A stretch of DNA of 53,518 nt from a virus. A model generated the notes under the pieces. It had not been told where the DNA came from. It saw only the letters and a program-made list of their open reading frames with translations, and ran no database searches. Shown here in pieces: positions 16,751 through 43,916 of the stretch. Within the stretch, counting starts at the first letter, position 1; every line of letters begins with the position of its first letter. The DNA is taken from IMG/VR virus record IMGVR_UViG_3300021373_003472, positions 1 through 53,518 of that record. One strand, 5' to 3'. The translations under genes and the position numbers were made by a program.

Positions 16751-17630
16751 TTTCGAAAGTTTCTACTTCGTCTACAATTTCTTCTTTTTGGTATTTTTTA
16801 CCAGCCATTTTTTCATACATTTTCTCCATCTTAGCTTTTCTTTTTTCTAAGATTTTAACTTCTTTTTGCATGGCTTTCATTTTGGTTTTATCTACTAATT
16901 CTGCTAAGTTAGCATCTTCAGAAACCATATTAATACGTTGTAATTTTCCCTCAATTACTTCATCTATTTTATCTAGTTTAGCTTCCATAGCTACAATATC
17001 AGCTTGTTTATCAATTTCAGCTAAATCAGTATCAATTGATTCTTTTTTAGGTTTTTTAGCTAGTTTTTTCTTTTCTTCTTTTTCACCAGCCATTTTTCCT
17101 TTTTCATATTCTTCAGCTCCATATCCTTCAGTCATTCCCCCCATTAAAGATTCTTTAACTACTTTTTTAAGTTTATCAGAATATCCACTAGAAGCATGTT
17201 TACCAGATACTTCTTCTAACTCAGTTTCTTGATACCCAATACCTTCAACTCCGAAAGCAGCATTTTTCATATAATACTGTCCATCTTTAGCTAAATTTTT
17301 AGCTACGATTTCTTTAATTTCTTCAATTGATTTATCTGGGTTTTGTTTTGATTCAAAATAAACACCATTCATTACTTCTTGACCAATTTGATTATCTAAA
17401 TTACTTTTATCAGTGTAATCAAAATTATGGGCTTGAGTTTCTTCAACTTCTTTAGTTACTTTTTTCTCTTCAACTTTTGCTTCTTCAGCTAAGTATTGAG
17501 CAAATTTATTTTCAAAATCAGCTTTAGGTGTAGAATCTAAATTACCAATAGCAGGAAGATCAACATATCCTAAATTTTCATTAATTAATTCTTTTTTTAC
17601 TGATTCGAATATTTTTTCTGAATTTTTCAT
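16743..17630 (-). CDS. Prohead core-region protein, coiled-coil
   Basis: A 295-residue, Lys/Glu-rich protein with long helices, notably residues about 210-280 (KQADIVAMEAKLDKIDEVI, then KILEKRKAKMEKMYEKM). It occupies the place of T4 gp67/gp68 between portal and protease and has the charged helical look of an inner scaffold component, but it is much larger than either. Its N-terminus (KIFESVKKELINEN) could be a capsid-targeting helix with an LINE cleavage site. It overlaps gp21 by 8 nt and its upstream neighbour by 4 nt. No family is recognised. Confidence 0.7.
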   Translation of the reverse strand: MKNSEKIFESVKKELINENLGYVDLPAIGNLDSTPKADFENKFAQYLAEEAKVEEKKVTKEVEETQAHNFDYTDKSNLDNQIGQEVMNGVYFESKQNPDKSIEEIKEIVAKNLAKDGQYYMKNAAFGVEGIGYQETELEEVSGKHASSGYSDKLKKVVKESLMGGMTEGYGAEEYEKGKMAGEKEEKKKLAKKPKKESIDTDLAEIDKQADIVAMEAKLDKIDEVIEGKLQRINMVSEDANLAELVDKTKMKAMQKEVKILEKRKAKMEKMYEKMAGKKYQKEEIVDEVETFENE

Positions 17631-23524: not shown

Positions 23525-23887
23525 CTATGCAATATCTAAAGCTTTTTCTAATTCTTTTTTCAGTTTTGTTTTTTCCTTTAGGTCAGCCATAATTTTTTCT
23601 TTTTCTTCACCCTCAGCTTTTTTATAATCACCATTCAAAGATTTCATTTCTTTAGTTAATTTAGCTAATTCTTCTTTCATTTTAGCTAAACTTTTAGTTG
23701 CTTTAATATCAGCTTTAGTTGGACCTTCTTCTTCTTCTTTCATATCCATTTTAGACATTAAATCAGCAGTTTTTTCTAACTCTTTATTTAGTTCCTTTTG
23801 ATTATTAATATCTTCTTGTGATGCTTCCTTAGCAAGAATAGATAAAATTTCTTCTTTAATAAACGATTGTAATTCTGATTTTTTCAT
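23525..23887 (-). CDS. Small charged helical protein with capsid-targeting-like N-terminus
   Basis: A 120-residue Lys/Glu-rich protein, predicted almost wholly helical and coiled. It begins MKKSELQSFIKE, and the FIKE resembles the FIAE that ends the capsid-targeting peptide of T4 internal proteins. After that site follow EILSILAKEASQ and several coiled segments. A late-promoter element lies 17 nt before the ATG. An internal head protein processed by gp21 is a reasonable inference. A scaffold accessory is the alternative. Confidence 0.6.
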   Translation of the reverse strand: MKKSELQSFIKEEILSILAKEASQEDINNQKELNKELEKTADLMSKMDMKEEEEGPTKADIKATKSLAKMKEELAKLTKEMKSLNGDYKKAEGEEKEKIMADLKEKTKLKKELEKALDIA

Positions 23888-23904
23888 TTATATAGGGGTT
23901 TTTG

Positions 23905-23914
23905 TTATAAATAT
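23905..23914 (-). promoter_or_regulatory. Candidate late promoter (ATATTTATAA element)
   Basis: The coding strand reads ATATATTTATAACAAAAAC, 17 nt before the ATG at 23887. It matches the consensus almost exactly and would drive the spanin-like pair and gp17. Confidence 0.65.
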
Positions 23915-23915
23915 A

Positions 23916-24446
23916 TTAAGAATTAATAACATTTAATATCTGCTCTATACGCTGCTCTGTTGTACCCTTAATTTCTGATACATTTTTAGTCATAAAACCA
24001 TATCTATTAATTAAATGAGTAATACTAAAATCGATTAAATCTCTATAATGTTCATCTGTTTCTCTTACTCCATTATCTTCAATAGGAATACCATCAGGAG
24101 AAATATAAAAAATATAATCATATTCTCTAATAAATTCTTTAGCATAATCTTCAAATTTTTCACTATCTATTAAGTCTATTGATTTAGCTGATTTAGTAAA
24201 AGCTATTACATCAAATATTGTTCTATCTGTGATTATGTTTTCATGCATTAATTCAGCACATCTTTCAGCTAAAAATACTGTTTGACCTTTTAATGTTGAA
24301 TCAGTATTTAAAGGAATACCTAAATCACTTAAATATTTACTACGTTCTGTAGCAAAAGTATAATCTTTAAATTGTTCAACTTCTTTTAAAGCATTAACTA
24401 AAGTAGTTTTACCTACTGACATTGTACCACATAAACCTATTTTCAT
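23916..24446 (-). CDS. P-loop nucleotide kinase-like protein (NadR/AAA_28 type)
   Basis: A 176-residue P-loop protein. Walker A is GTMSVGKTT at residues 7-15, next to an MKIGLCG strand. A later segment NIITDRTIFDVIAFTKSA supplies the DR motif typical of deoxynucleoside- and NMN-kinase-like enzymes, followed by a YDYIFYISPDGIPIEDNGVR strand and loop. Enzymes of this kind phosphorylate a nucleoside or nucleotide cofactor; the substrate cannot be read from the sequence. Its stop lies close to the late element at 23905, so it ends a transcript that begins with the FAD oxidoreductase. Confidence 0.7.
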   Translation of the reverse strand: MKIGLCGTMSVGKTTLVNALKEVEQFKDYTFATERSKYLSDLGIPLNTDSTLKGQTVFLAERCAELMHENIITDRTIFDVIAFTKSAKSIDLIDSEKFEDYAKEFIREYDYIFYISPDGIPIEDNGVRETDEHYRDLIDFSITHLINRYGFMTKNVSEIKGTTEQRIEQILNVINS

Positions 24447-24448
24447 AA

Positions 24449-24715
24449 TTAATTTCTATGATTATCTAATTTAGCTTTCATTGATTGGTTTTTATAATAA
24501 GGTAGACCTTCCCTTTGTTTTCTCATTTCTTTCCATTCCTCTATTGTTTTTCTATGACCATAAAGATAATATTCTCCTTTTCTTTCATTACCTTCTGGTA
24601 TTAAAGCTGGTCCATCCCAGTTATGTAACTTCCCATCCCATACATAAGCTATTGTACCATCAGCTTTTCTTAATCTTTTTGATTGTGGAAATGGTTGTCC
24701 TGATTCTATATTCAT
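24449..24715 (-). CDS. Small WDGPA-motif protein
   Basis: An 88-residue soluble protein with an aromatic-rich core (IAYVWDGKLHNWDGPAL, then EYYLYGHRKTIEEWKEMR). The HNWDGPA and YYLYGHRKTIEEW pattern is a small MORN-like motif that I have seen in phage and bacterial proteins without known function. It lies 2 nt before the kinase-like gene and downstream of the FAD oxidoreductase. A TATATTAACG element like that before the FAD gene sits at 24731-24740. Confidence 0.6.
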   Translation of the reverse strand: MNIESGQPFPQSKRLRKADGTIAYVWDGKLHNWDGPALIPEGNERKGEYYLYGHRKTIEEWKEMRKQREGLPYYKNQSMKAKLDNHRN

Positions 24716-24730
24716 ATTTTATAATTTATT

Positions 24731-24740
24731 CGTTAATATA
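24731..24740 (-). promoter_or_regulatory. Second-class A/T promoter candidate (TATATTAACG)
   Basis: The coding strand reads TATATTAACGAATAAATTAT, 15 nt before the ATG at 24715. It is the same layout as the element before the FAD gene (26056-26065), with a 2-nt length difference after the ACG. Confidence 0.4.
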
Positions 24741-24751
24741 TGAAGTGTTTT

Positions 24752-26038
24752 TTACTCCTCCAATATTTTTTCAGCAACTAAAGTACCTTGTGCGCCACTC
24801 ACTGTTATTCCTCTAGCAGAAAGAGCATCCCCAACAAAATGAATATTAGGATATTTGGTTAGGGATAAATCAGAATAATCAACAAGTGGCTCAGGTGACA
24901 AATATTTTACTTCAGGTACATAAATACCCCAATCATCTTTAAGTGTTGGAAATACTTTTTTCATATCCTCAATAAAATCATATACATACATAAAATATGG
25001 TTGCATTGCTTTAGATATTTCATGTAATGTATCTACTTTAATAGCTGATACTTCTACACCTTCAGATGTTTGAGATGGTTCTCTACTTGGGCTGTAATAT
25101 AAACCAGTACCTTCTTTTTGTAATTTATTTACTACTTTTCTAGACCAATCAAATGGTTTTTCAATACCTCTAACTTCCATTAGGATACCAAAATTAGTCA
25201 TATCATTTCTGTATTTTTCATCTTTTTTAGCATGACCATTATAACTGTGATCTCCATATGTTTCTTCTACAGCAACATAAGCAGCATTATTATTAGTACA
25301 GAATGATCTTAATGATACACCTTTATCTTCAAATTTTCTATATAATTTAAAATCATAAGAAACATCAATTAATTTTTGAAAGTGTTTTTGTGGAGCTTCA
25401 AATCTAACACCTATTTGTACTGGTTTAGGTTCAGTTGGTAAATCATATTTTTCAGCTAATTGTTTACCAAAATCAATACCACTTTTACCTACACCAAAGA
25501 TAAGTGTATCATAATCAATTGTAAAACTATCAGTATAGGCAATTTGTTTATCAAAATCAATATCTTCTACTTTAGTTTCCCAATGAAATTCTACACCATT
25601 ATCAACTAAAAAGTCATACCAATTTTTACCTATTTCATGTAAGTAATCAGTACCAACGTGCCATACAGGGAATAAACGTAATCCAAAATATGGTTTAATA
25701 AAATCAGGTTCTGCAACAGGATTTGAGCATTGTACTTCTTCTGGTTTAGGATGGAATCGTTTAAAGTTTTCAATTACTTGATCCATTAATTCCATTGCCT
25801 TTTCATCACCTGTATATTTAGATAAATGACCACCAATGGCAGTATGGTAAGTTAATTTACCATCTGACCAACCTCCTGCACCTAAAAATCCAGTCATTAC
25901 CTCAGAATAAGGTCTTAAATATGGGTCTTTACCCATATCAATAATGGTAATTTTACCACTAAAGTTGTTATCAACTAATTTTGTAGCAGCATTTACACCT
26001 GCTACTCCTGCACCTACAATTACTACGTTTTTAGACAT
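24752..26038 (-). CDS. FAD-dependent oxidoreductase
   Basis: A 428-residue flavoprotein. The N-terminal Rossmann motif is VVIVGAGVAGVNAATKL (GxGxxG at 9-14). The C-terminal flavin-binding signature is HFVGDALSARGITVSGAQG at about 400-418. A central LIFGVGKSGIDFGKQLAEKY segment fits the uncharacterised FAD-dependent dehydrogenase group (COG2509-like). No second dinucleotide domain is obvious, and the substrate is unknown. Such an enzyme is unusual in a T4-like phage and would count as an auxiliary metabolic gene. It starts directly after a terminator with its own promoter candidate. Base composition looks like its neighbours, so a recent transfer is not evident. Confidence 0.85.
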   Translation of the reverse strand: MSKNVVIVGAGVAGVNAATKLVDNNFSGKITIIDMGKDPYLRPYSEVMTGFLGAGGWSDGKLTYHTAIGGHLSKYTGDEKAMELMDQVIENFKRFHPKPEEVQCSNPVAEPDFIKPYFGLRLFPVWHVGTDYLHEIGKNWYDFLVDNGVEFHWETKVEDIDFDKQIAYTDSFTIDYDTLIFGVGKSGIDFGKQLAEKYDLPTEPKPVQIGVRFEAPQKHFQKLIDVSYDFKLYRKFEDKGVSLRSFCTNNNAAYVAVEETYGDHSYNGHAKKDEKYRNDMTNFGILMEVRGIEKPFDWSRKVVNKLQKEGTGLYYSPSREPSQTSEGVEVSAIKVDTLHEISKAMQPYFMYVYDFIEDMKKVFPTLKDDWGIYVPEVKYLSPEPLVDYSDLSLTKYPNIHFVGDALSARGITVSGAQGTLVAEKILEE

Positions 26039-26055
26039 TTATTATAATTTTAACA

Positions 26056-26065
26056 CGTTAATATA
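26056..26065 (-). promoter_or_regulatory. Second-class A/T promoter candidate (TATATTAACG)
   Basis: The coding strand reads TTTGTATATTAACGTGTTAA, 17 nt before the FAD gene start. It follows the terminator at 26071-26096 within a few bases. The half-palindrome TTAAC/GTTAA around it could also be an operator. Confidence 0.4.
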
Positions 26066-26070
26066 CAAAC

Positions 26071-26096
26071 TAAAAATGACCCATCCAAAGGATGGG
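26071..26096 (-). terminator. Intrinsic terminator closing the 36.8-26.2 kb gene run
   Basis: A 7-bp stem CCCATCC / GGATGGG with a 3-nt loop is followed on the minus strand by TCATTTTTA. It lies about 67 nt past the stop of the 35-codon gene at 26163. Confidence 0.75.
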
Positions 26097-26162
26097 CCAC
26101 AGCTCCATAATATTTTTAATTAAATCGACTGGCTATGAATCAGTCTATATGTTTGTTTTTAC

Positions 26163-26270
26163 CTAAAAAAAGGGCATATCTGTACCATCTATTTCAAAGC
26201 CATCTTTTGTGGGGGTAATTGATCCCGTTGGCATAGGTTCCCATGATCCTGTTGATGGTAAGTTACCCAT
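26163..26270 (-). CDS. 35-residue small protein
   Basis: A short open frame from the ATG at 26268-26270 encodes 35 residues, opening MGNLPSTGSWEPMPTGS and ending GTDMPFF. Its ATG lies inside the last codons of the cupin-like gene (AATGGGTAA), giving an 8-nt overlap typical of coupled phage genes, and it fills the space before the terminator. Composition is Gly/Pro/Thr/Ser-rich without Cys or a membrane segment. The overlap and a clean fit between stop and terminator support it. Function is unknown. Confidence 0.5.
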   Translation of the reverse strand: MGNLPSTGSWEPMPTGSITPTKDGFEIDGTDMPFF

Positions 26271-26526
26271 TTATTTTTATTTTTAAATTAGTTGTACCTT
26301 TTAATATTCGGTGTATTCTACCTTCTGCTATAAATATATGATCACCTTTTTTAACCTCAAAGGGGAGTTCGTTGTCAAATTGAACCTGCCATCCTTCTCC
26401 TTCTAAAATTTCAATATTTCTATCTTCAGCATCTTGATGCCAAACTAATTCTAGCTTATTTATATCTTTTGAGAATGTTCTTACGTTACCTTTATTACGA
26501 TAAGGTTTTATTTTGTTTTCCCCCAT
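26263..26526 (-). CDS. Small cupin-like phage protein
   Basis: An 87-residue protein. The segment EGWQVQFDNELPFEVKKGDH followed by IFIAEGRIHRILKGTTNLKI has the strand-turn-strand pattern of a minimal cupin barrel, with HQ, H and H side chains (WHQDAEDRNIE, GRIHR) placed as in metal-binding cupins. Very similar short proteins occur in cyanophages and other aquatic T4-like phages, without known function. It overlaps the upstream basic gene by 19 nt. Confidence 0.65.
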   Translation of the reverse strand: MGENKIKPYRNKGNVRTFSKDINKLELVWHQDAEDRNIEILEGEGWQVQFDNELPFEVKKGDHIFIAEGRIHRILKGTTNLKIKING

Positions 26527-26924
26527 GATTTACCTTTTCCTTTATCTTTGCATTTTGCAGGTGTAGGTCTACATGATGGATATTTTGCCCTTTTTTCTCC
26601 TTTTTTTCTACCACAGGCTTTGTATTTCATTTTACCTGTTTTAGGATCTTTTCTACCTGTATTACAATCAACCCAACCTCCTTCTTTACCTGCAGGGCCT
26701 TGTCTTTTAAACCATGTACGTAAAGATTCTTTTTCTTTTTCACTTAGTGTTTGAACATGTTCTTTTACACCTTTCCAAATATCTCCTTTACGACATCTAA
26801 CTACAGCACCTGATTTATATGCAGATGGTTTTTCAAATTTGCGGTCAGCAATACGGAGACATCTGTCTCGTTTTTTCTTTTTTTCATTTAGAACATTATG
26901 TATTGCTTCCCTAACTCTTTCCAT
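26508..26924 (-). CDS. Basic Cys-containing protein, DUF5872-like
   Basis: A 138-residue, very basic protein. I start it at the ATG at 26922-26924 rather than a TTG two codons earlier; this ATG overlaps the upstream stop as TAATG. The first 14 residues (MERVREAIHNVLNE) form a capsid-targeting-like helix ending in LNE. Next comes LRIADRKFEKPSAYKSGAV, then the DUF5872-type block WFKRQGPAGKEGGWVDCNTG and YPSCRPTPAKC, whose Cys residues may bind metal. Relatives occur in many aquatic phages. A nucleic-acid-binding or internal head protein is plausible. Confidence 0.75.
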   Translation of the reverse strand: MERVREAIHNVLNEKKKKRDRCLRIADRKFEKPSAYKSGAVVRCRKGDIWKGVKEHVQTLSEKEKESLRTWFKRQGPAGKEGGWVDCNTGRKDPKTGKMKYKACGRKKGEKRAKYPSCRPTPAKCKDKGKGKSWGKTK

Positions 26925-27535
26925 TACCAAAAAGTATTCATATTAGCACCTAAACCTAATGCCGATGCATATCTAGGTAAATTGCAAGACCAATATCCTG
27001 CTTTGGTTCTATCTTTTTTATTTTTACAATTATGTCTAGCTGCAAAAGCATTTCTAGCTTCTTTATTTTTAATTTTAGCTCTTAAGCCACCCGAACCAAA
27101 TGATACTTTTTTAATTTTTTTAGTTTTAGGATCCCTTACATAAACATAATATGCTTTAGAACCACCACGTTTTGGTTTATTTAGGGGTACATCTTTACCT
27201 CTAAATTCAGCTTCTTCAATTTCATCTTCATTTAACATAGGTAAATCTAAGGGTACAGATACACCTTCATATAAACCAAATTCACCTAAATGTGTTTTAA
27301 TTAATGCTTCATCTTCTTCACATAAATCAATTACATTTCTAGAATATAATTTTCTAGCTTCTTTAATTAAAGATAAATGTTTATCTGAACCAATACGATA
27401 TACTGTTTCAAATAAAGGAATTTTTTTATCTATATGATATTGTAGACCTTCAGATAATAAAGATTTTACTTTACTTTCTGTAAGTAAAGGTCCTCTAATT
27501 TTAGTTTCACAAGTATTACATCCGCAGTTACACAT
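26924..27535 (-). CDS. Conserved aquatic-phage protein with basic Cys-rich C-terminal domain
   Basis: A 203-residue protein. Residues 1-12 are Cys-rich (MCNCGCNTCETK). Residues about 15-105 are a helical domain (LLTESKVKSLLSEGLQYHID, then EARKLYSRNVIDL, HLGEFGLYEG). The C-terminal 75 residues carry YYVYVRDPKTKKIKKVSFG, then ARNAFAARHNCKNKKDRTKA and GYWSCNLPRYA. Both domains recur in uncultured aquatic myophages, where I know them as conserved proteins of unknown role. LLTE and LLSE could be gp21 sites. It is coupled to the DUF5872-like gene by a one-base overlap, and the two share the Cys/basic character. Confidence 0.65.
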   Translation of the reverse strand: MCNCGCNTCETKIRGPLLTESKVKSLLSEGLQYHIDKKIPLFETVYRIGSDKHLSLIKEARKLYSRNVIDLCEEDEALIKTHLGEFGLYEGVSVPLDLPMLNEDEIEEAEFRGKDVPLNKPKRGGSKAYYVYVRDPKTKKIKKVSFGSGGLRAKIKNKEARNAFAARHNCKNKKDRTKAGYWSCNLPRYASALGLGANMNTFW

Positions 27536-27536
27536 A

Positions 27537-28655
27537 TTATCTTATTATCATATTAGGGTGGGGATTATTCCATTGATAACCACTAATTGGGTTTTTAACT
27601 ATAGTTCCAAATAAACCATCATCAATTGAATCCTCTAAGTTATCAATATCTACTAATACATAATCACCTTTTTTAGAATCCATAAACAAAAAATAACCAA
27701 CATTAGTCTTCTCAGCATATGCTTCAGCATTTAACTTAGTTAATTTTATTTTCATTTCTGCAACATCTTTAAAATCAGCAGGACTGTTAAAATATTTTTT
27801 AGCTAAATCTTTATTAAAGAAAATGCTATCTAAAGCTTTTTGAACATCTTTAATTATAGTTTTTTCTTTCTCCTTTTTCTTTTTTGGATCATCCTCATTG
27901 GTTATAGCTTGATCGTAAAGATTTTTAATGGATACATTAATTATTTTATTTTGAGGATCGTTTAAAAATTCTTCTAATTCTTCTCCTTCTAAATATCTTT
28001 TTCCTAAAAATTCTAAATAATCAAAATCACTACCTCTTCCAGGTTGTTGTCCTAATCTACCTCCTGTTCCTTTTACTTCTAGATTTTTTCCATTATAATT
28101 TAAATCACCTCCACCACCTCTATTATCAATATCATTAAAGGCTAAAGCTAAAAATAATTCACCTTTACCTATAGAAGAACCAGTAGCATCAGCACCCGGT
28201 TCTATATTAATTAAATCTTGTACTAGATTAGATGATAATCCTGTAACTTTTGAAAAATTTCCTTTTTCGGGGGAATTAGAGAATGATTTGGGTTTGTAGT
28301 TTAAAAATTCTTGGACATTAGAATCTGAGATTTTATCTATTACATATTCTAGTGCTTTATCTCCTACTTTAAATGAATCAGCAGTATATCCCTTTTTTGA
28401 TAATAAATTCTTAAGATCACCTTTAAATCCTCTATTAGAAATAGATCTAATATAAGCATTTAATTCTTCGTTGCTTAATTTACTAGAACGAATTATTTTG
28501 ATAAGTTTATCTTCAAGGTTTTCTTCCTCCTCTTCTTTGATTAAGTTATTTACTATTGAAAATAACTTTTCCTTGTCTTCAGGATTATTCATATCAGGAT
28601 AACCCTTCGAAAATCTCCAACTATGTTCTTTTAATATCTTATCAAAAACATCCAT
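27537..28655 (-). CDS. Predicted PD-(D/E)XK nuclease-fold protein with capsid-targeting-like N-terminus
   Basis: A 372-residue protein. GKGELFLALAFND (Glu166) followed by GGGGDLNYNGKNLEVKG (Asp184, Glu193, Lys195) is the core of a PD-(D/E)XK restriction-like nuclease site, and GTGGRLGQQPGRGSDFDY follows. The N-terminus MDVFDKILKE resembles a T4 capsid-targeting peptide with LKE as cleavage site. Related proteins are found in aquatic phages without assigned function. It may be an ejected or packaging-related nuclease. The nuclease fold is a motif-based prediction. It lies one base from each neighbour. Confidence 0.65.
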   Translation of the reverse strand: MDVFDKILKEHSWRFSKGYPDMNNPEDKEKLFSIVNNLIKEEEEENLEDKLIKIIRSSKLSNEELNAYIRSISNRGFKGDLKNLLSKKGYTADSFKVGDKALEYVIDKISDSNVQEFLNYKPKSFSNSPEKGNFSKVTGLSSNLVQDLINIEPGADATGSSIGKGELFLALAFNDIDNRGGGGDLNYNGKNLEVKGTGGRLGQQPGRGSDFDYLEFLGKRYLEGEELEEFLNDPQNKIINVSIKNLYDQAITNEDDPKKKKEKEKTIIKDVQKALDSIFFNKDLAKKYFNSPADFKDVAEMKIKLTKLNAEAYAEKTNVGYFLFMDSKKGDYVLVDIDNLEDSIDDGLFGTIVKNPISGYQWNNPHPNMIIR

Positions 28656-29101
28656 TATATTTCTTCTGTGTCTTCTATTTCAGTTTCTGTTTCTATATCT
28701 TCAGCTCCTTCAACATCAGCTCCTACTCCAGTTGTTGTTTTACCCCCATAAGATAAAATCCTAGCTATAGATTCTGCTGCTCTTTCTTCTTCATCTAAAT
28801 TTAATAAATAATATTTTTTACCTTGAACTTTAGCTACCCAACTTCTATCATTATATTCTAATAAGAAATTTTCACCGTTTAAAAGGTTTACTCTAAAAGT
28901 AGAAGGACGAGGAGCAACCCAATCAATTGATTCTAAAAATTTATCAAAATCAACCGTAAGTAAATCAATGATAACTAACTTTAATTCTGGGAATTTGGTT
29001 AGTTCATCATAGGCAATAGCAGCATCTTCACCTTTGGTTTTTTCCTTATAGACTTCTTTTGCAAGTCTTTTTATTTTTTCTTTTAATTCAGAAGCTGTCA
29101 T
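28655..29101 (-). CDS. Hypothetical acidic protein
   Basis: A 148-residue protein starting [20 protein letters not shown]. The middle is mixed alpha/beta (FRVNLLNGENFLLEYNDRSW, then VAKVQGKKYYLLNLDEEERA). The last 30 residues are acidic (EDIETETEIEDTEEI), as in the scaffold. It shares one-base overlaps with both neighbours (stop and start joined), so it is translated with the polyprotein-like gene before it and the nuclease-like gene after it. No family function is known to me. Confidence 0.6.
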   Translation of the reverse strand: MTASELKEKIKRLAKEVYKEKTKGEDAAIAYDELTKFPELKLVIIDLLTVDFDKFLESIDWVAPRPSTFRVNLLNGENFLLEYNDRSWVAKVQGKKYYLLNLDEEERAAESIARILSYGGKTTTGVGADVEGAEDIETETEIEDTEEI

Positions 29102-30894
29102 TATTTTTTATCTTGTTTAGCTAAATAGGCTGCAACAGCCATTTTGCGTCTTTTATCTTGGGATTTTCCTTTGAATTGTTTAGCATCTGATTTTTGGAAA
29201 TCATCTACAAAATCACCTACATCAGATTTTTTAGTAAGTTTTTCTTTTATAGCTTTTATTTCACCACCTTTATTATAGATGTTTGATGCTTTAGTTTTAC
29301 CTTCACCTTTATCATATAATACATTATAGGTAACATCACCAGTCATTTCTTTATTAACTTTAGTGATTTCACCTGGGTGTCCTAGGTATGTTACTTTATC
29401 TCCTACTTTAAATCCTTCAGCTACTTTTTTTTTACCTAATACCTCTTTAACATGTTTTTTGATTAAATGTTTTAAAGGTAATTCAAATACTGTGTCAGCA
29501 TCCATTTCAATTTTTTCTTCATCTATTGAAGATAAAGGTCTATCTTTATAAAAATCTCTTTGTGCTTTAGCTTCTCTATCTAAACCACTCATTACATGAT
29601 CAACTATATCTCTTAAACCTTCAGTTGAAATATCAACTGGGTTGTAGTTACCATCTGTCATGTAAGAATCTATTCCAACTTTACCTGTAGAGTCTTTTCT
29701 CCTCATTCCCGCTTTTGCAGCTTCTTCTTGATCAATTCTATACCCATACATTCTACTAATCATAAATTGATCAACATCTTTATCATATTGGAATATTACT
29801 ACTTGTGATGGATTTTTACTATTATCAGAGGAAACTGAATAGCCATCAAACCCAGCTTCTTTTCCATCTGGTCGGCGTTCTTCAATATGGTATCCTTTTT
29901 TAGCAAAATAATCAAATAATTGACCGCCGTCCATTTCTTCTTCTTTTAATGGTTTGTCAGTACCCATTGCTTTTGAAAGCGCATCATATGCTTTATTTAA
30001 AATACTTCTATTTTTTTCACTTTTATCTTGGTTATAATTACCTCGTGCAACCCAAATATCTCTATGAAAGGGGCTGAGTTTATTATAATCAAGTTCCTCT
30101 TCTAAAGAAGATTCCTGCATATCATGACCATAGAGTTGTTTTTGTATATTATATATTTTATCTTCAATTTTATTTAATTCATCACCATACTTATCTGCAA
30201 TTGGGCCACCTTCTGGTTCAGCTTCTTGCTCCATATCTCGCATTAATTGCTCTCTTTCATCTACTAAATTAGCTAACATATCTTTTAGAGTTTTAGCTTC
30301 ATTAGAATCAATTGCTTCATCTAACATATCATCAATTTGAGCTACTTTTTCTTCACCATCTAAATAATGTTTAGCTGAGACTAATAGATTTTTAGCGTTA
30401 ATAATTTTAGATTGCCACCAGTGTGGAAAATCCACTTCTCCACCTTGATCGTATTTATCCATCATTTCAAATAATTCAGATGAATATTTAGCTATTCTAT
30501 ATAAGTCTTTTTTAAGCATGTGAGGTTCATTGTCTTGATGACCTACATCTAAATCCTCAGTTTTAAGATCTTGTTTAATAGTTACAGGATGCATTTTGCC
30601 ACTACCTTTTGGAAATTCAAATTCTTTTTTACCTGCATCTCTAGCTGCATCTGCTGCTAAAACAAAAGGAGATGCTTCTTTGACAGCAAGAGCATCTTGG
30701 ATCATTTCTTTAAGTTTGTCTAAGTTCATATTTTCAACTTTTTTCTTAGCTTGTTTAGTGGCAATGCCATACATAACCTTTTCCGCATCCGCACCATATT
30801 TTTTAACTAGAGCACGTTTGTTTTTTAACAAACCTTTTAGAGCGATATTTTGTTGCTCTAGTTCGTTTTCGGTGAGTTTACGCTCGTTTAACAT
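29101..30894 (-). CDS. Multidomain polyprotein-like internal protein
   Basis: A 597-residue, highly charged protein made of several modules. These are an N-terminal helical part beginning [15 protein letters not shown]; a module [20 protein letters not shown] at about 75-95; a helical middle with [20 protein letters not shown]; an SH3/KOW-like module [20 protein letters not shown] at about 500-520; and a basic tail [20 protein letters not shown]. The modules and acidic linkers look like those of aquatic-phage head-associated polyproteins that gp21 could cut. A prohead-internal role is inference from composition and context. Confidence 0.6.
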
Positions 30895-30895
30895 C

Positions 30896-31618
30896 TTATC
30901 TTTCTACTACGTGTGATCTTGTAAAGAAAGTAATAGAATTCCCAATTTGGTCTGCTAACTTTTCGTCTCCAATAGCTACAGCATTGTCATAAGCAGATTT
31001 TAAGTCATCTTGAATTGCTTGCTCTTCTGCTGAAAGGCCTACTTCAGAGGGAGTTGGGTCACCCATTTCTGGTTCTTCCATATCTATTTCATCTTCAACT
31101 TCTACTTCATCTTCAATTTCTGCTTCAACATCTTCCTCTTCTTCTTCTGAGAGTAATTCAATGATATCTTCTTTGATTTTAGCTTTAAGTTCAGATACTT
31201 TTATTTTATAGCTAATTGTATCCTCACCTTTTTCTATTTCACCATCTTTATGAAGATCATCCATTTCATCTTGTGAAAGTTCAATTTCTTCTTCTGTTAC
31301 AGAAGAAGCTTTAGCATCAGCGTCACCAATTTTTTTATTTAATTCATCAAGTGTATCCTTAAATGTTTTAGCTAATTTTACTAATTCTGGTTGGTTTTCC
31401 TCTAGGTATTTTTCTAGAGCAGTAAATCTAGATTCCAGTGTAGATATAATATCAGTATATGATTTGAATTCACTAAATTCTTCAGTAACTGTTTCTTCAA
31501 CTTCAGCTACTTCTTCGTTTTGAATTTCTTGTGATTCAGTAATTAATTGACCCTTTACTTCTTCTTTTTTAAATAAATGATTATTTTTTAAATACTCTGT
31601 GTAATTAAAATCGCTCAT
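30896..31618 (-). CDS. Acidic helical protein, scaffold-like
   Basis: A 240-residue, strongly acidic helical protein. Residues about 15-60 and 150-200 are Glu-rich ([35 protein letters not shown]). The C-terminal 45 residues are a neutral helical module ([20 protein letters not shown] then [13 protein letters not shown]) that I have seen at the ends of other aquatic-phage proteins. It resembles a second scaffold or core component. A late-promoter element lies 16 nt before the ATG, making it the first gene of a late transcript. Confidence 0.6.
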
Positions 31619-31634
31619 TATAATATATTTTTAT

Positions 31635-31644
31635 TTATAAATAT
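31635..31644 (-). promoter_or_regulatory. Candidate late promoter (ATATTTATAA element)
   Basis: The coding strand reads TAATATTTATAAATAAAAAT, 16 nt before the ATG at 31618. It lies just past the stop of the lipoprotein gene. Confidence 0.65.
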
Positions 31645-31946
31645 TAATTTCTTTTTTTATATTTACTCCTAGTTTGGTTGCTTCTTCCACGATTAGGGGA
31701 AACAGTTGAACCTCTACGTCCTTTTACTTTAGATTTTGGTTGAACTACAATAACTCTAGGTGGAACATAGTATGGTAAGTATTCCCTATTATTTCTATTA
31801 TAAAACCACCAATAATTCCAAGATTGGGGTTGTGGATCAACAATTACATTTCTAGGTTGAATATAAGTGGGTTGTAAAGTAGATAATTGGTAGGTACCAC
31901 AAGAGGTTAAACTTAATACTAATAATAAACTTATTAAATATCTCAT
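31644..31946 (-). CDS. Small lipoprotein, basic C-terminus
   Basis: A 100-residue protein with a lipoprotein signal peptide: MRYLISLLLVLSLTSC, lipobox LTSC with Cys16. The mature part is Pro/Tyr/Trp-rich (QPQSWNYWWFYNRNNREYL) and ends in a basic tail (GRRGSTVSPNRGRSNQTR). Phage lipoproteins can block superinfection or act as outer-membrane spanins. The basic tail and lack of a coiled coil do not clearly favour either. It sits between a 100-residue soluble gene and an acidic scaffold-like gene. Membrane targeting is secure, role is open. Confidence 0.65.
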   Translation of the reverse strand: MRYLISLLLVLSLTSCGTYQLSTLQPTYIQPRNVIVDPQPQSWNYWWFYNRNNREYLPYYVPPRVIVVQPKSKVKGRRGSTVSPNRGRSNQTRSKYKKRN

Positions 31947-31954
31947 TATTCTAC

Positions 31955-32257
31955 TTATGATTTGCTTATTTGGGATGATCTAACAATTCGTACTATCTCA
32001 CCTCGATCATCATCATCAGTATGAAATACTTCATATTCACCATATTTTTTACCATGATTTTTATTACCCCAATCATACATGTCTTGTTGAGAACCTCTTA
32101 CATCAATTCTTCTATAAATGTCTGAATCTGGGAAGTTAATAGTAAATGTTAAATCCTTATGTTTATTATTTAAAGTAGCAGCTAATTTTTCTAGATATTC
32201 TTTACTTTCGTTAAGATATCTTTTTTTATTCCATTCGTGTACGTCAAAATTATTCAT
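31955..32257 (-). CDS. Hypothetical 100-residue protein
   Basis: A small soluble, mixed alpha/beta protein (residues 5-35 helical with VHEWNKKRYLNESKEYLEKL; a strand pair LTFTINFPDSDIYRRIDV; acidic loop FHTDDDDRGEIVRIVRSS). No motif or membrane segment is recognisable. It begins near a variant late element at 32281-32290 and is followed after 8 nt by the lipoprotein gene. Confidence 0.55.
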   Translation of the reverse strand: MNNFDVHEWNKKRYLNESKEYLEKLAATLNNKHKDLTFTINFPDSDIYRRIDVRGSQQDMYDWGNKNHGKKYGEYEVFHTDDDDRGEIVRIVRSSQISKS

Positions 32258-32259
32258 AA

Positions 32260-32880
32260 TTATTTAGATTTACTTGTTTGTGATAAATATGTACTTAATA
32301 GGGTACCAATAGTAATTGATTTGTCACGTAAATATTCTAATTGATCTTCATTTAAACTTTTTGCTCTATTACAATATTCTGCTCCTAATGTTCCTATAAA
32401 TTCATTTTTAAGAGAAAATAAGGCAAACATGTAAGAAGATTTAGCTTGGGTTCCTTCTGCAAATGTAGCTAATCCTAGTTTATCATCTTTAAAATTAGGA
32501 ATTAGTATTTCTTTATTTTCATACATGTGCATAAATGGTTTTGTGAATAAAGAAACAGGAATATTTGTATAAGTATCACTTATTCCCTTATTTCCTGGTT
32601 TAATATGTTCATAAAATACAGAAAATTTTTGGATTGATTTACCTGTAGGGTAAAAATTACCTCCATTATGGAACTGGGAAATCCATATTCTGCAGCATTT
32701 TAATTCTGTCATTATTTCTTCTAATTGCTCATCTATTAATAAATTAGATTTAATAGAAGAAACTACAGGGTCAGCAGATTTCTTTTTAGATTCTAAATAA
32801 AATCTATATCTAGTTACTAATATAGGTCCTACAAAAGCAGTTATTATTGCTACTAATATTGCTATTTCCAATTCAAACAT
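32260..32880 (-). CDS. Membrane-anchored GAF-like domain protein
   Basis: A 206-residue protein with one N-terminal membrane helix (residues about 5-24, EIAILVAIITAFVGPILV). A domain with GAF-like order follows at about 55-195: CCRIWISQFHNGGNFYPTG, a strand with FSVFYEHIKPG, a variable loop, SSYMFALFSLKNEFIGTLG and a final helix. GAF domains bind small ligands or serve as signalling modules, and this one faces the cytoplasm if the helix is a signal anchor with a short outside end. No output domain is present. The GAF call rests on pattern, not a clear motif. Confidence 0.55.
   Translation of the reverse strand: MFELEIAILVAIITAFVGPILVTRYRFYLESKKKSADPVVSSIKSNLLIDEQLEEIMTELKCCRIWISQFHNGGNFYPTGKSIQKFSVFYEHIKPGNKGISDTYTNIPVSLFTKPFMHMYENKEILIPNFKDDKLGLATFAEGTQAKSSYMFALFSLKNEFIGTLGAEYCNRAKSLNEDQLEYLRDKSITIGTLLSTYLSQTSKSK
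32281..32290 (-). promoter_or_regulatory. Variant late promoter candidate (ATATTTATCA)
   Basis: The coding strand reads ACATATTTATCACAAACAAG, 23 nt before the ATG at 32257, inside the 3' end of the GAF-like gene. It has the ATATTTAT core and the usual downstream CAAA. Confidence 0.5.
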
Positions 32881-32881
32881 T

Positions 32882-33457
32882 TTAAGTTTTTAATCCTTCT
32901 AAATATTCGACAACCTCTTTAATATTTTTATCTACTAATTCTTTATTAATTTTTCCATTCCACTTTTCAACATCACCAGCTTCAGAAACAAAAGAATTAT
33001 TTGATTCAGACATTTTTTCTTCTACCCAATTCTTAAATTCTACTATTTTATTATCAATCTCATCATTCTTAATATTGCGCTGGTATTCTTCCCACTTGCC
33101 TTGCTTTTTTAATTCAGCTTCAAAATCAATTACACAATCAAAACAAATTTTATGTATATTATAAAATTGTTTATCTACACGTTTTTTCATTACGCGTTTA
33201 CATTTTGGACAAAGTAAAGGCATAACATGTGCCTTTTTTGCTTTATCTAACTTAGTGATATTTTGTTTAATACCATCTTTGATAGTCCAAGTCCTACCAT
33301 CAGATTCCCAAATATCACCTTCTTTATAAAACTCATCTTTTTTAGAGAAACCAACACTAGAACGTGTTTTTTCACCATATTTTCCTTGAACAAGATTTCT
33401 TAATCGTTCTACATCTTGTTTTTGAAACTCTTTTTTTAAAACGTTATCTTGACTCAT
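32882..33457 (-). CDS. Zinc-ribbon protein of unknown function
   Basis: A 191-residue protein with a two-part zinc ribbon: CPKCKRVMKKR at about 83-93 and CFDC at about 104-107. It is flanked by a basic N-terminal half with an IWESDGRTWTIKDGIKQNITKL module and a charged helical C-terminus (VEFKNWVEEKMSE). Proteins of this make-up are conserved in aquatic T4-like phages, and binding to DNA or RNA is plausible. It overlaps the five-domain gene by 4 nt (ATGA). Confidence 0.6.
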   Translation of the reverse strand: MSQDNVLKKEFQKQDVERLRNLVQGKYGEKTRSSVGFSKKDEFYKEGDIWESDGRTWTIKDGIKQNITKLDKAKKAHVMPLLCPKCKRVMKKRVDKQFYNIHKICFDCVIDFEAELKKQGKWEEYQRNIKNDEIDNKIVEFKNWVEEKMSESNNSFVSEAGDVEKWNGKINKELVDKNIKEVVEYLEGLKT

Positions 33458-35529
33458 AAACCTAATTTTTGTAAATCAGAAATAACCTGATTTGCTGATT
33501 GATATAATATACCTGTTCCTCCTGCGTTATTCCAATTATCAATTATATACTGTTTGTCGTCTATAAGTATATCAAAATTGGTTAATTCTGGTTTGATTAA
33601 ATGTTTTTCTTTGGATTTTTCAAAATTTATTTTGGGTTTTGAAGGAAATACATCTCCTATATGATTTCTAATCCAAAGTCTTTTTCCTAAACGGGATTCT
33701 TTTCTAGCAGATGGGGCAGTTAACATTTCATAATCATGTTTAGATACATAATCAACTAATTCTTTAGCACCATCCATAACAGGAATACCAATCCAAAAAC
33801 GTAATTTATGTTCTACATCTATAAAATCCCAAAATTCATTTTTACCAAATTTATCTTCAAATTCTGAAGGTTCCATTCCTGATAATGATCTAAATCTTTG
33901 GTCAAAATCAGCTACAACCCCATCCATATCAAGATAAATTTTATATTTGCCTTCTTCTTCTCTTAAACGAGCTAATTCTTGTGAAAATGCTTTTATACCT
34001 AATTTATCTCCTTTTTTCCCTTCTTCTATTACAGAATTAGTCCAACTTCTAAATAAAATATTTCCAGTTTCATAAGCTTCTCTTTCAATATTTTCTAAAC
34101 GATCATCTTGATTTACATTAGTTGTACCATAATCCTCTAATCTATCTTCCATGTTTTGATGAACATGTACTAATTCATGAGCATAAGATCTTAAAATATC
34201 TTTTGGATGTCTACCATAGGTAAACAAAACTATTTTATTATTATGTGGAGTGTAGTATGCTGTGTTACCTAATAATTTCATCCCATTTTCAACTTCATCA
34301 TGTACAAATTTAACTTCAGGAGATGGTTGTAATTTTAAACCATTATCTTCCATATAAGAAGTTAATGATTCAATATAGGGACTAAAATTAAATTCTTTAG
34401 GGTCTAAAGATTCATTTAAAGTTTGTTTTGATAAATCAACTACCCATATTTTAGGATCTATTCCATTTTTAACTGAACCTGCAAGTCTGGTATTACCAGC
34501 AACTAGATCATAATCATTATTTGAGAATTTAACAGCAATTGGTGTTTCAATATTTCCAACTTTAAATGCTGATATAAATCTTTGTTTTTTAGGTTCTTCT
34601 AGACTATCAAAATCTAAATTTACATTTCCTAGCACTTTTTTAATAGAACTATAAGGAACAGATTTACCTTGTTTAGCTAATTTAACCCATTTTTCTTTCC
34701 CCATTTCTACAAATTCTGGATAACGATTAGCTTCTTCCCATTCTGCATCAAAGTTAGGATTGGTATATGTTATTTGTTTATTTTCTTCTAATCCTAAACT
34801 AACTAATTTAGTATAATACTTTGGGTCCTCAGCTAAATGTTGCAAAGCAATTACTTTAGCTTTAGCTGGGTCATCTGTATGTTCCATTTCAACTTTGATT
34901 CCCATTTTAAGTTCTTTGGGATCAACTTCTTTTTCTTTAGCTGGGGTTTGGATTTCAGCTATTTTATCTGATACTATATTATATACTTCTTGTTTTTCTT
35001 CAGGGGATAAAATATTAGGAACAAATTTTTCAAATTTTTCAAATGAAACTTTAGCAGCATTTCTAGCAGCAGTGCCTGATACCCCACCTGCTGTTACAAT
35101 GGTACGAAGTTCTAAATTTGGGTATTTAGAAATTGATTTAGTTCTGTCTTTAATATCTTTAAAATCTTCTTCATTCCCCTCTCTAGCACCTATAACCCAT
35201 AATACTTCTCTTGTAGGATGGTTTTTAGCAAAATCATATACTGCTTTAACAGGGGGTATTGAGGTAGGTTCTATTTTAACTTTAAATGGAAGATATTTTT
35301 TATAAATTTCCCATATTAATAAAGATTCTACTTGGCTAATACCATTTCTGTCTTTATTCCCTATAAAAAGAATAAGTTCATCTATTTCTGGGTTTTGTTC
35401 AAGGGCTAATTTAGCAACTTCAAAATGACCAGAAGTAGGGGGTTTGAATCCACCAGCGTATACTGCTGTGGTTTGTTTTTTTTCTTCTTCAGGTAGTAAT
35501 CCTTTTACTAATTCATTTACTAAACTCAT
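33454..35529 (-). CDS. Five-module fusion: nucleotidyltransferase, DUF5661-like, ParB-like, HExxH peptidase-like, HAD phosphatase
   Basis: A 691-residue chain with modules in this order. First is a cytidylyltransferase-like fold with GGFKPPTSGHF at 26-36 and WVIGAREGNE at 111-120. Then a DUF5661-like block, VEMEHTDDPAKAKVIAL, at about 213-229. Then a ParB/sulfiredoxin-like domain with LVAGNTRLAGS at 342-352. Then a small metallopeptidase-like module with AHELVHVHQ (HExxH, His451, Glu452, His455) and a likely third ligand in EREAYETG near 484. Last is a HAD-type nucleotidase with YLDMDGVVADFDQRF from 532. It starts MSLVNELVKGLLPE, a possible capsid-targeting peptide. Each fold is motif-based, and the joint role is unknown. 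A virion-delivered, gp21-processed polyprotein is one possibility. Confidence 0.8.
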   Translation of the reverse strand: MSLVNELVKGLLPEEEKKQTTAVYAGGFKPPTSGHFEVAKLALEQNPEIDELILFIGNKDRNGISQVESLLIWEIYKKYLPFKVKIEPTSIPPVKAVYDFAKNHPTREVLWVIGAREGNEEDFKDIKDRTKSISKYPNLELRTIVTAGGVSGTAARNAAKVSFEKFEKFVPNILSPEEKQEVYNIVSDKIAEIQTPAKEKEVDPKELKMGIKVEMEHTDDPAKAKVIALQHLAEDPKYYTKLVSLGLEENKQITYTNPNFDAEWEEANRYPEFVEMGKEKWVKLAKQGKSVPYSSIKKVLGNVNLDFDSLEEPKKQRFISAFKVGNIETPIAVKFSNNDYDLVAGNTRLAGSVKNGIDPKIWVVDLSKQTLNESLDPKEFNFSPYIESLTSYMEDNGLKLQPSPEVKFVHDEVENGMKLLGNTAYYTPHNNKIVLFTYGRHPKDILRSYAHELVHVHQNMEDRLEDYGTTNVNQDDRLENIEREAYETGNILFRSWTNSVIEEGKKGDKLGIKAFSQELARLREEEGKYKIYLDMDGVVADFDQRFRSLSGMEPSEFEDKFGKNEFWDFIDVEHKLRFWIGIPVMDGAKELVDYVSKHDYEMLTAPSARKESRLGKRLWIRNHIGDVFPSKPKINFEKSKEKHLIKPELTNFDILIDDKQYIIDNWNNAGGTGILYQSANQVISDLQKLGL

Positions 35530-36329
35530 GTACGAAGAAATTTATTTATTTTTGATTGTGCCTCTTCTTTATCTAACCCATCTTTTACTATTTTTTCTAC
35601 TTCTTTGCTTTGTATTAAATTTTGGGCTAATTTATTTAATTCTGCTTTTTGTTTATCACTTCGAGCTTGTTGAGCTGGAGTTTTAGGTTTGGCATCTGTA
35701 ACTTTAAAATGGTCTAAATATTCTTTATATATGTCTTCAATTTTTTCCATTTTTTCTCCTTCTAATGTATTAGCTACTAAGGCAAAATTTTCATTACTAA
35801 ATAATTCTTTATAAGGAAAATAATTTTTAGTTACATTTACCCAAGTTCTTAATACTACAGCTGGGGATAAGCTTCTATCTTTCCCTCCTGATTTTTCAAA
35901 TCTAAAGTGGTTTTGTTTTAAAGAACGTTCTAAATCTGTATAAACATAAAGCATGAATACATCATATCCTGCTTCTTCTAATTGTTCTTTTAATTGTTGA
36001 GTATTTTTATAAGATGCAGCAGTACCATCTAATATAAAAGATTCTTTACCTGCAATTACAGTTTGAATTTGACCCTTAAATTCTTTATTAGCTGCCGCCA
36101 TAGCAACAGCAGCATCACTTCTTTGTTGAGCATTTGCTCTTTTTAAATTTAAACTAACATTAGCTTTTTTTAGTTTTTCAATAAAAAGGTTATCTACATT
36201 CATTATTTTTAAACCACTTAGGTCTAATCCATCAAGGGTATATCCTTTTCCTGCACCTGGGGCTCCAGCTAATATAATAGCTTTAGGATTACCTTGAGCT
36301 TCTCTTAATATTTGTACTAAACTTATCAT
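35526..36329 (-). CDS. Zeta-toxin-like P-loop kinase with capsid-targeting-like N-terminus
   Basis: A 267-residue protein. The P-loop AGAPGAGKGYT spans residues 21-31, followed by IMNVDNLF, a long helix, and the SFILDGTA and DVFMLYVYTDLERSLKQ segments typical of zeta-toxin/AAA_33 kinases, which phosphorylate small substrates such as UDP-GlcNAc or polynucleotides. The ten residues before the domain, MISLVQILRE, look like a removable targeting peptide with LRE. The C-terminal 65 residues are charged and helical. It overlaps both neighbours by 4 nt. The substrate is unknown. Confidence 0.8.
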   Translation of the reverse strand: MISLVQILREAQGNPKAIILAGAPGAGKGYTLDGLDLSGLKIMNVDNLFIEKLKKANVSLNLKRANAQQRSDAAVAMAAANKEFKGQIQTVIAGKESFILDGTAASYKNTQQLKEQLEEAGYDVFMLYVYTDLERSLKQNHFRFEKSGGKDRSLSPAVVLRTWVNVTKNYFPYKELFSNENFALVANTLEGEKMEKIEDIYKEYLDHFKVTDAKPKTPAQQARSDKQKAELNKLAQNLIQSKEVEKIVKDGLDKEEAQSKINKFLRT

Positions 36330-36862
36330 GATTTTGGTTTTCCCATCATTACTTTTCTATGCTTTTCTCCTCCGATAACTCTATCATAAGATCCATCTCC
36401 GTTCCAAACAATATCTTTCCCTTTTAATACTTTACGAACTAAAAATTCATCATCAACAGGTTCTACTCCTTTAGCAAGAAGAATATCTTTTATTTTTCCA
36501 CTAACCTCGATATAATATCCTGTTCTTTTAAGTAATTCAGCTTTATGATTAACTATTTTACTTTTTGCTTGTGGTGAATTATCATGACCCGTTGCCACAA
36601 ACTTTATACCTGATGGTTTTTGTTTTGCAACACTAACTGCATCTATTCCTGGATCTGAATCTAAATCAATAACTTCATATTCTTCATCTGGGGTTATGTC
36701 ACTTGGGGATTTATAATTAGGATGACCCCCAATAGGGGCGTATGCTGTAGAAATAAGATCAAAGATCTCATCTTCATAGTCTTTTAATTCAGAAGTGGGA
36801 ATGGGTTGCCATTGTCCTTTAGATAAGGCCATTTCCTTAACAATATCTAAAAATTTTATCAT
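36326..36862 (-). CDS. Conserved aquatic-phage protein, possibly GNAT-like, with capsid-targeting-like N-terminus
   Basis: A 178-residue protein. It begins MIKFLDIVKE, a likely targeting helix. The body has FDLISTAYAPIGGHPNYKSP, a strand VIDLDSDPGIDAVSVAKQ, FVATGHDNSP, a helical AELLKRTGYYIEVSGKIKDIL and a final FLVRKVLKGKDIVWNGDGSY then GGEKHRKVMMGKP. This order recurs in aquatic phages and loosely fits a GNAT acetyltransferase fold, but I see no clear acetyl-CoA loop. It has its own late-promoter candidate upstream and is coupled to the zeta-like kinase by a 4-nt overlap. Confidence 0.6.
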   Translation of the reverse strand: MIKFLDIVKEMALSKGQWQPIPTSELKDYEDEIFDLISTAYAPIGGHPNYKSPSDITPDEEYEVIDLDSDPGIDAVSVAKQKPSGIKFVATGHDNSPQAKSKIVNHKAELLKRTGYYIEVSGKIKDILLAKGVEPVDDEFLVRKVLKGKDIVWNGDGSYDRVIGGEKHRKVMMGKPKS

Positions 36863-40161: not shown

Positions 40162-40171
40162 GTATAAATAT
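40162..40171 (-). promoter_or_regulatory. Candidate late promoter (ATATTTATAC variant)
   Basis: The coding strand reads TTAATATTTATACTAAATTT, 14 nt before the ATG at 40147. It starts at the stop of the 1092-residue fusion gene. Confidence 0.55.
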
Positions 40172-43449: not shown

Positions 43450-43916
43450 TATTTATTGTGTTATATAATGGTTTTCTATTATTAAACCATCTAATTCTGT
43501 TGTTTGAAGTATTAAAAAACCATCTTTAATAGTAGATAAAATAGGTTTTCCTGCTACATTAAATGAAGTATTTAGTAATACTCCTACACCTGTTTGTTTA
43601 TCTAATTCAGATAATAATTCATATAAAAATGAATTTTGTTCTTTGGTAACTGTTTGTATCCTGGCTGTGCCATCTATATGTGTAATAGAAGGTAATTTTT
43701 CTTTCCATTCTTCTTTAACCATAGGGCAAAAATTCATCCATCTACTTTCTCCTTCCCATTCAAAATATTTAGAAACATCTTCTAGTCTTACTACAGGAGC
43801 AAACGGACGGTACCATTCTCTATTTTTTACTTTAGCATTAAGAATATCTTTCATATTTGGAATACTAGGATCACAAATAATACTTCTATTACCTAATGCC
43901 CTTGGTCCATGTTCTG
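42239..43916 (-). repeat. Near-identical DNA blocks in paralogous carbamoyltransferase genes
   Basis: Two 44-nt blocks are identical between the two genes: 42239-42282 with 43811-43854, and 42301-42344 with 43873-43916. They encode the catalytic REWYRPF and EHGPRALGNRSI regions. Even synonymous positions agree, unlike the rest of the genes, which suggests recent duplication or gene conversion. Confidence 0.7.

Follow-up and report, generated by a model that had tools for sequence, protein, structure and literature searches.

Do the accessory proteins of a T4-like phage carry, at their N-termini, an address for the inside of the head? This question is raised by a 53.5 kb virus record of IMG/VR (IMGVR_UViG_3300021373_003472, positions 1 to 53,518), which was analysed over its whole length and is called the window here. 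Nearly all of its genes lie on the minus strand, and genes are named by their start coordinate, the start codon being at the higher coordinate. Directly upstream of gp17, an accessory block (23.5-36.9 kb) encodes several proteins that begin with a short amphipathic peptide ending in hydrophobic-x-Glu. Packaging tags of this kind have been known in T4 for decades, on a handful of proteins. A first-pass annotation of the window had likened seven N-termini to them and proposed that the proteins are packaged, trimmed by gp21 and injected as a host-takeover set. Based on the analysis described here, we consider it likely that 36329, 36862, 35529, 26924 and 23887 and, with leaders of other types, also 32257 and 31618 start with T4-kind capsid-targeting propeptides, which would be cut by gp21 and whose cargo would be injected.

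In the T4 internal protein IPIII, the first ten residues are enough for incorporation, with targeting depending on residues 4 and 7 and processing on residues 8 and 10, and gp21 cleaves after L/I-x-E (PMC9026906). These positions were mapped on the IPIII N-terminus MKTYQEFIAE (hydrophobic 4, 7 and 8, Glu 10) and translated into the strict pattern h..hh.E, where h is one of LIVMFYW; the regular expression was fixed from T4 and the window N-termini before the comparative sets were looked at. Of 134 T4 genes used as a control, just four (IPII, IPIII, gp24 and Alt) have the pattern with its end exactly at residue 10, all of them head proteins cut by gp21 (PMC9026906 and established T4 knowledge). 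T4 IPI is not caught, so that sensitivity is incomplete, and about 3.5% of internal Met windows match. A plain search for hydrophobic-x-Glu near the N-terminus was discarded as too weak, since RILEISDD is retained by 37/39 members of the exonuclease family F1, which has no leader.

All seven N-termini quoted in the first-pass annotation are present as given on the minus strand, and six of them (23887, 26924, 28655, 35529, 36329 and 36862) match the strict pattern, while 30894 has only LTE. The leaders measure 10 residues in 36329 and 36862, 12 in 23887 and 14 in 26924 and 35529, within the range of about 10-19 for a T4-type leader; the IPIII positions are exact in 36329, 36862 and 28655 and shifted by 2 or 4 in 23887, 26924 and 35529. 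Across relatives, five of the seven hold (Table 1). The other two were dropped or held weak because of orthologue conservation: Q, N, D, K or V can take the place of Glu10 in 28655 orthologues, where the residues beyond it are conserved without a break, and 30894 orthologues have MLNERKLT followed by Glu or often Lys. The proposed position just before a folded domain was found for 36329, 35529 and 26924, but not for 28655. None of the control genes 24446, 26038, 37330 and 33457 is strict. N-termini that had been overlooked (32257, 31618 and probably 27535) were added; homologues of the 27535 body start with a strict leader in 32/56 cases, the window copy does not, and the protein is a probable cargo judging from these relatives.

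The concentration of such N-termini in the block was borne out by motif statistics across the window. The pattern ends at residues 8-16 in 6/18 block genes versus 0/37 elsewhere (Fisher 6.4e-4), and residue shuffles of the block gave on average 0.48 matches, with 0/2000 reaching six. Since the block had been picked in the first-pass annotation, independent tests weigh more. Among cultured phages, Flavobacterium phage immuto was the nearest found; the host of the window phage may be deduced from it alone, and its 101-128 kb block is syntenic with that of the window. In the complete immuto genome, 11 of the 31 genes of this block match, versus 9/195 elsewhere (Fisher 4e-6); several of those nine have the look of true leaders (MIKLIDLLTE, MENFDLKKFLVE). 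Loci anchored on gp21 contained 50 matches among 633 genes (10.3 ± 3.1 in shuffles). When one member per family was counted over 289 loci, 97.8 of 550 families matched versus 15.5 ± 4.1 after shuffling; cargo proteins had served as queries for most of these loci, a bias towards cargo neighbours but not towards their N-termini. Among 2710 genes, the end position of the pattern peaks sharply at residues 10 (191) and 12 (168). Families are bimodal, with high values for the kinase (65/70), the 36862 family (14/15), F29 (16/18) and F34 (14/16), and 0% for gp20, gp21, gp23, the exonuclease, the P-loop protein 24446 and the FAD protein 26038; the primase has 1/66. A few families are intermediate, some of them because single linkage joined unrelated members (F0, F1).

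Leaders and bodies are exchanged independently of each other. Each of 75 homologues of the 36329 kinase has MISLVQLLKE, MNDFDFKKYLAEGRLLKE or MIDTFDIHKWNYKRYLAE ahead of its body, whose start is near PKAIILAGAPGAGKG. These three peptides are unrelated, yet every one of them ends in [LIV]xE just before the fold; L143, a homologue added later, is an exception in having no Glu. The C-type leader also occurs on the zeta kinase of L037 and L058. Likewise, the DUF5872 body KRDRCLRIADRK follows MERVREAIHNVLNE, MIKLTDILNEILSE, MDRLNRIIQEVLQE and others, the 32257 body is headed by the HEWNKKRYLNE leader or, in L198 and L201, by MKLRDIILSE / MRLSDIILNE, and the 35529 family has MNQLTKHLVDGILNE as an alternative leader. 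Free-standing NT5C nucleotidases have leaders of their own (MISLNKLFEE, MIKLIDLLNE), while the window NT5C domain forms the C-terminal part of the 35529 fusion, whose single leader is at its start. Conversely, one leader type is found on many families with unrelated bodies: 23 for MIKLxDLLxE, 14 for KKSELRQIIKEE and 29 for NFDLKKYLAE; the type of 23887 is found on 14 families. Decamer pairs sharing at least 7/10 residues across families number 4553 among 535 strict N-termini versus 47 among 2147 internal Met decamers. Leaders of the same genome are more alike than permuted ones (2.13 versus 1.76 ± 0.05 identical residues of 11), and in L134 five unrelated genes begin with MKKSELRQIIREE or a near variant. 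At shared leader residues, synonymous codon identity is 0.70 within a locus versus 0.66 between loci; this near-random identity indicates that selection keeps the peptide and not the DNA, and recent DNA copying of a leader cassette as the source of sharing is unsupported. A short-peptide tblastn of leader B against phages gave no match, which with 22 residues is weak evidence.

The window also encodes a T4-like head module with gp17, gp20, a gp21-type protease, an acidic gp22-like protein and gp23. The GELDHP and VSSRG motifs of the window gp21 align with T4 gp21. In gp23, a gp21 site is predicted after Glu58 (QLVVE/SSQTGGG, the slash marking the cut), aligned with FLTE/AEIGG of T4, and VVE is conserved. 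Given gp21 and this conserved site at the T4 position, [LIV]xE is a probable substrate motif of this lineage's protease. In the window phage, the hydrophobic face of the leader would bind the prohead core, and the attached protein would be enclosed in the prohead; the gp21 homologue would then cut after the conserved [LIV]xE and free the mature protein inside the head, from which it would exit with the DNA at infection. The leader would act as an exchangeable cassette, its cargo in this lineage comprising kinases, nucleotidyltransferases and nucleotidases besides many unknown proteins.

Published virion proteomes of relatives, set against N-termini, have demonstrated that leader-bearing enzymes occur in virions. 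According to Table 3 of PMC10665884, the cyanophage S-CREM2 has in its virion an S-adenosylmethionine (SAM) lyase starting with MKDFDSFLEE (PF23780 2.3e-19), an APH-like kinase (MKRFDAFLTE), a cytidylyltransferase (MKNFSSFLTE) and the hypothetical proteins ORF13 (MKDLHSFLTE) and ORF136 (MQTFSMFFSE). With the annotated structural and lysis classes excluded, the strict pattern occurs in 5/26 detected versus 7/166 undetected proteins (p 0.013). The form ending at residue 10, which is the T4 form but was chosen after the data were seen, occurs in 5/26 versus 1/166 (p 1.7e-4). Over all 52 detected proteins the residue-10 form remains significant (p 0.003) and the strict test does not (p 0.16), since this count includes baseplate and tail proteins, for which a leader is unnecessary. 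Similar N-termini are found on the S-SM1 cytidylyltransferase T4-GC190 (MKKFSAFLNE), listed as present in virions in PMC3037559, on the S-SZBM1 cytidylyltransferase (MRFRQFIIE), given as the sole virion enzyme in PMC9146016, and on the S-CRM01 kinase (MISFDQFLSE), whose virion detection is cited in PMC10665884. The S-CREM2 authors state that such virion proteins may enter the host or be contaminants (PMC10665884); the leader common to these cyanophage enzymes argues for packaging over contamination. It is not mentioned in the passages of these reports that were consulted.

As to the cargo, two proteins named in the first-pass annotation, a zeta-like kinase and a multi-domain fusion, were retained, and the PD-(D/E)XK candidate 28655 was not. 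Best Foldseek matches of the kinase body are zeta toxin 1gvn (2.4e-6) and PezT 2p5t. In the AlphaFold2 model, pLDDT is 50 for residues 1-10 and lies between 83 and 97 in each later ten-residue block, and a helix at 4-12 precedes the first strand at 16; a modelled N-terminus of low confidence ahead of the fold is as expected for a detachable leader. No antitoxin was seen among the PHROG/Pfam matches of the neighbours 36862 and 35529, no dedicated search having been made. The Walker A motif (GAPGAGKGY) has Gly where zeta toxins usually have Ser/Thr, and GKG also occurs in P-SS2. As the kinase lies next to the nucleotidyltransferase/nucleotidase fusion, one might guess that nucleotide or NAD metabolism is the target. 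A homologue, aligned from residue 14 of 36329, is contained in P-SS2 ORF030 (gp030, L298:2714-7213), a head protein of about 1500 residues detected in the virion at 96.5 peptides. This kinase domain within a head protein represents a second route of the same cargo into the virion.

The fusion body matches phrog_2643 (2.4e-21) and DUF5661 (1.5e-10), the nucleotidyltransferase-like similarity is weak (phrog_395, 0.004), and its ParB-like and HExxH domains were identified by eye. An S-SM1 homologue of the first domain was not established, similarity to a pelagiphage cytidyltransferase being marginal (24%, E 0.009). For 28655, E166, G183-D184, E193 and K195 are invariant among orthologues; this E...GD...ExK motif is consistent with a PD-(D/E)XK nuclease without proving it, and a Foldseek search of the model (mean 80) against the PDB gave no match below E 1. 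No T4 internal-protein family (IPI-IPIII) was found among the PHROG/Pfam matches. Elsewhere in the set, a YHFT or YHYT motif was noted in three proteins that have leaders (L116:1478-2107, L146:5669-6487, L151:10526-11344) and may be analogues of T4 Alt; an ADP-ribosyltransferase cargo is not claimed, as the Tox-ART-HYD1 matches (6e-4, 0.015, 0.03) are all below the Pfam cut-off. A small leader-bearing protein, L129:7916-8452, has a weak kinase PHROG match.

Table 1. Leaders, candidate leaders, cargo bodies and head genes of the window
Feature	Coordinates	Strand	Remarks
Leader MISLVQILRE	36300..36329	minus	kinase gene 35526-36329; predicted cut after Glu10; 61/64 homologues strict
Kinase body, zeta-toxin-like	35526..36299	minus	Pfam PF06414 1e-16
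Leader MIKFLDIVKE	36833..36862	minus	gene 36326-36862; 13/14 homologues strict; usual form MIKLVDLLNE
Leader MSLVNELVKGLLPE	35488..35529	minus	multi-domain fusion gene 33454-35529; 38/60 strict, 52/60 hydrophobic-x-Glu
Fusion body	33454..35487	minus	nucleotidyltransferase-like, DUF5661, ParB-like, HExxH and NT5C/HAD domains
Leader MERVREAIHNVLNE	26883..26924	minus	DUF5872 gene 26508-26924 (DUF5872 2.5e-6); 41/57 strict
Leader MKKSELQSFIKE	23852..23887	minus	coiled-coil-like protein gene 23525-23887; 12/14 strict
C-type leader MNNFDVHEWNKKRYLNE	32207..32257	minus	gene 31955-32257
B-type leader region	31535..31618	minus	gene 30896-31618; FDxxKYLxE-type in 15/16 family members
N-terminus with LLTE and LLSE sites	27476..27535	minus	gene 26924-27535
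MDVFDKILKE	28626..28655	minus	pattern match, weak candidate; 4/11 orthologues strict
MLNERKLTE	30868..30894	minus	rejected; 0/35 strict
gp17	21262-22827
gp20	19330-21231
gp21-type prohead protease	16145..16750	minus	phrog_207 2.8e-60
gp23 major capsid protein	13184..14812	minus	phrog_138 1.9e-67
Acidic gp22-like scaffold	14840..16021	minus	from position (between gp21 and gp23) and composition
Possible prohead core protein	16743..17630	minus	N-terminus MKNSEKIFESVKKELINE followed by NLGY; adjoins gp21

Some features of the table need a remark. The start of 26924 is an ATG within the open reading frame (ORF), with TTG at 26930 as an alternative. A PHROG search with the gp22-like protein gave no match. 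Relatives of the 16743-17630 protein begin with MKKADKIFKDLLNE before NLGY, which matches the strict pattern, and by its N-terminus and location the protein is a possible prohead core protein. Outside these regions, 40171-45054 holds two large neighbouring ORFs of 1092 and 533 aa, whose starts resemble each other (YGSHN(A/G)SI), followed by sugar-metabolism-like genes. In S-CREM2, gp12 (L306:7704-10313), annotated as Cas9/Csn1 and found in the virion (PMC10665884, Table 3), has the leader-like LRFASFMAE/AA near residues 17-25; a Pfam search with it gave no match, and its relatives have MS.SRWSRW...GFSSFLKE in common.

Capsid targeting with removal by gp21 has to be weighed against other explanations of the same peptides. 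Compatible with capsid-targeting leaders, and with a modest share of the probability in our view, is that most tagged proteins assist head assembly as part of the core or scaffold and are not injected effectors: core proteins that undergo cleavage are known from T4 (gp67, gp68), the coiled-coil-like 23887 and 31618 are of small size or acidic, and the 16743-17630 gene adjoins gp21. However, 36329 and 35529 are enzyme-like and have no known assembly role, and the tagged S-CREM2 virion proteins are likewise enzymes. It seems unlikely that the leaders are packaging tags which gp21 leaves uncut here, with the Glu serving core binding. Asp at position 10 of IPIII blocks processing and still allows targeting (PMC9026906), so the two steps are separable; yet the position before the Glu is free to vary (R, K, N, L, M, I, A, G), and even leaders of unrelated sequence retain this Glu together with a hydrophobic residue at -2, in the form of the gp21 L/I-x-E motif and of the gp23 site. 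Short amphipathic helices are common docking elements, and the leaders might, with no connection to the head, attach to one another or to the tail, the membrane, a replication complex or some other assembly. We regard this as clearly improbable, as the leaders match the positions of the T4 capsid-targeting sequence (CTS) exactly and the junction ends in a protease motif; moreover, they are absent from the exonuclease, gp20 and gp23 and nearly absent from the primase and most tail families, and those of S-CREM2 are associated with virion detection by mass spectrometry. Finally, predicted starts, a region picked by eye and the background of matching internal Met windows could point to chance, gene calling or composition. 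Such an artefact is hardly credible: it is contradicted by matches far above shuffles in sets not chosen for cargo and in the complete annotated immuto genome, by the independent proteome association in S-CREM2 and by synonymous drift beneath a conserved peptide.

Several observations nevertheless weigh against T4-kind capsid targeting. Some homologues have no leader at all (the L063 fusion, the L163 DUF5872 protein), and the S-CREM2 kinase relatives in S-N03 and S-H34 do not have the strict form. The pattern also yields false positives: the probable tail/neck family F27 (e.g. L218, L219, L225), with a conserved VFIRE N-terminus, matches in 15/19 members and alone accounts for 15 of the 50 matches in the gp21-anchored loci, and the gp17 N-terminus matches in 6/43. 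Starts in the IMG/VR loci were predicted by a simple ATG rule. The virion data come from relatives, the window phage being known here from its genes, and no virion mass spectrometry of immuto was found in the literature.

If capsid targeting by such leaders holds beyond this genome, which we judge slightly more probable than the opposite, it would constitute a general head-loading code across T4-like phages (coliphages, marine cyanophages, pelagiphages and flavobacterial phages), with interchangeable classes of hydrophobic-x-Glu leaders that are recognised by the core, removed by gp21 and used to bring tens of unrelated proteins, including many enzymes, into the head. Leader dialects differ from genome to genome, which suggests that they co-evolve with the core. 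Such a code would account for unexplained cyanophage virion enzymes, explaining how kinases, a SAM lyase and nucleotidyltransferases that the authors could not distinguish from contaminants come to be in the virion, and would allow injected effectors to be predicted from sequence alone. Phages abundant in the sea would then carry a large and diverse pre-loaded protein set that can be listed from the genome, and new leaders for loading proteins into phage heads would become available.

Comparing our results to known systems, a T4 review has already suggested the CTS as a possible route for various proteins into T4-like heads (PMC9026906); apart from it and general T4 papers, nothing that connects capsid targeting to proteins of cyanophages or marine phages was found in the open literature, outside which most subscription journals lie. 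T4 Ip1-3 inhibit distinct GmrSD restriction enzymes (PMC12373910); the window cargo differs from them, so for the host takeover originally proposed, as for counter-defence, we can only infer a role. The cyanophages S-CREM2, S-SM1, S-SZBM1 and S-CRM01 resemble the window phage in that virion enzymes detected by mass spectrometry, in the reports cited above, carry the same decapeptide leader, but their cargo includes a SAM lyase and an APH-like kinase and their hosts are cyanobacteria. P-SS2 ORF030 shares the kinase homologue in a virion protein, carried there by fusion in a siphovirus head protein and without a leader. In polyvalent proteins, disparate enzyme domains are joined as in 35529 (weakly nucleotidyltransferase-like, NT5C and DUF5661), and Iyer et al. 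2017 named zeta-like kinases as fused to MuF head domains; injection was inferred there from domains and neighbourhood, whereas the window proteins have a leader as route (PMC5512222). The T4 CTS of IPII/IPIII, Alt and the gp24 propeptide agrees in having 10 residues, hydrophobic positions 4, 7 and 8 and Glu 10, one leader on unrelated bodies and a gp21-type protease in the same genome. Unlike in T4, the window lineage has far more cargo families, including many predicted enzymes, and several leader classes, among them the longer FDLKKYLAE/LLKE and HEWNKKRYLxE types, and cleavage is predicted here. The window leaders would be, in this comparison, a much-expanded variant of the known T4 mechanism.

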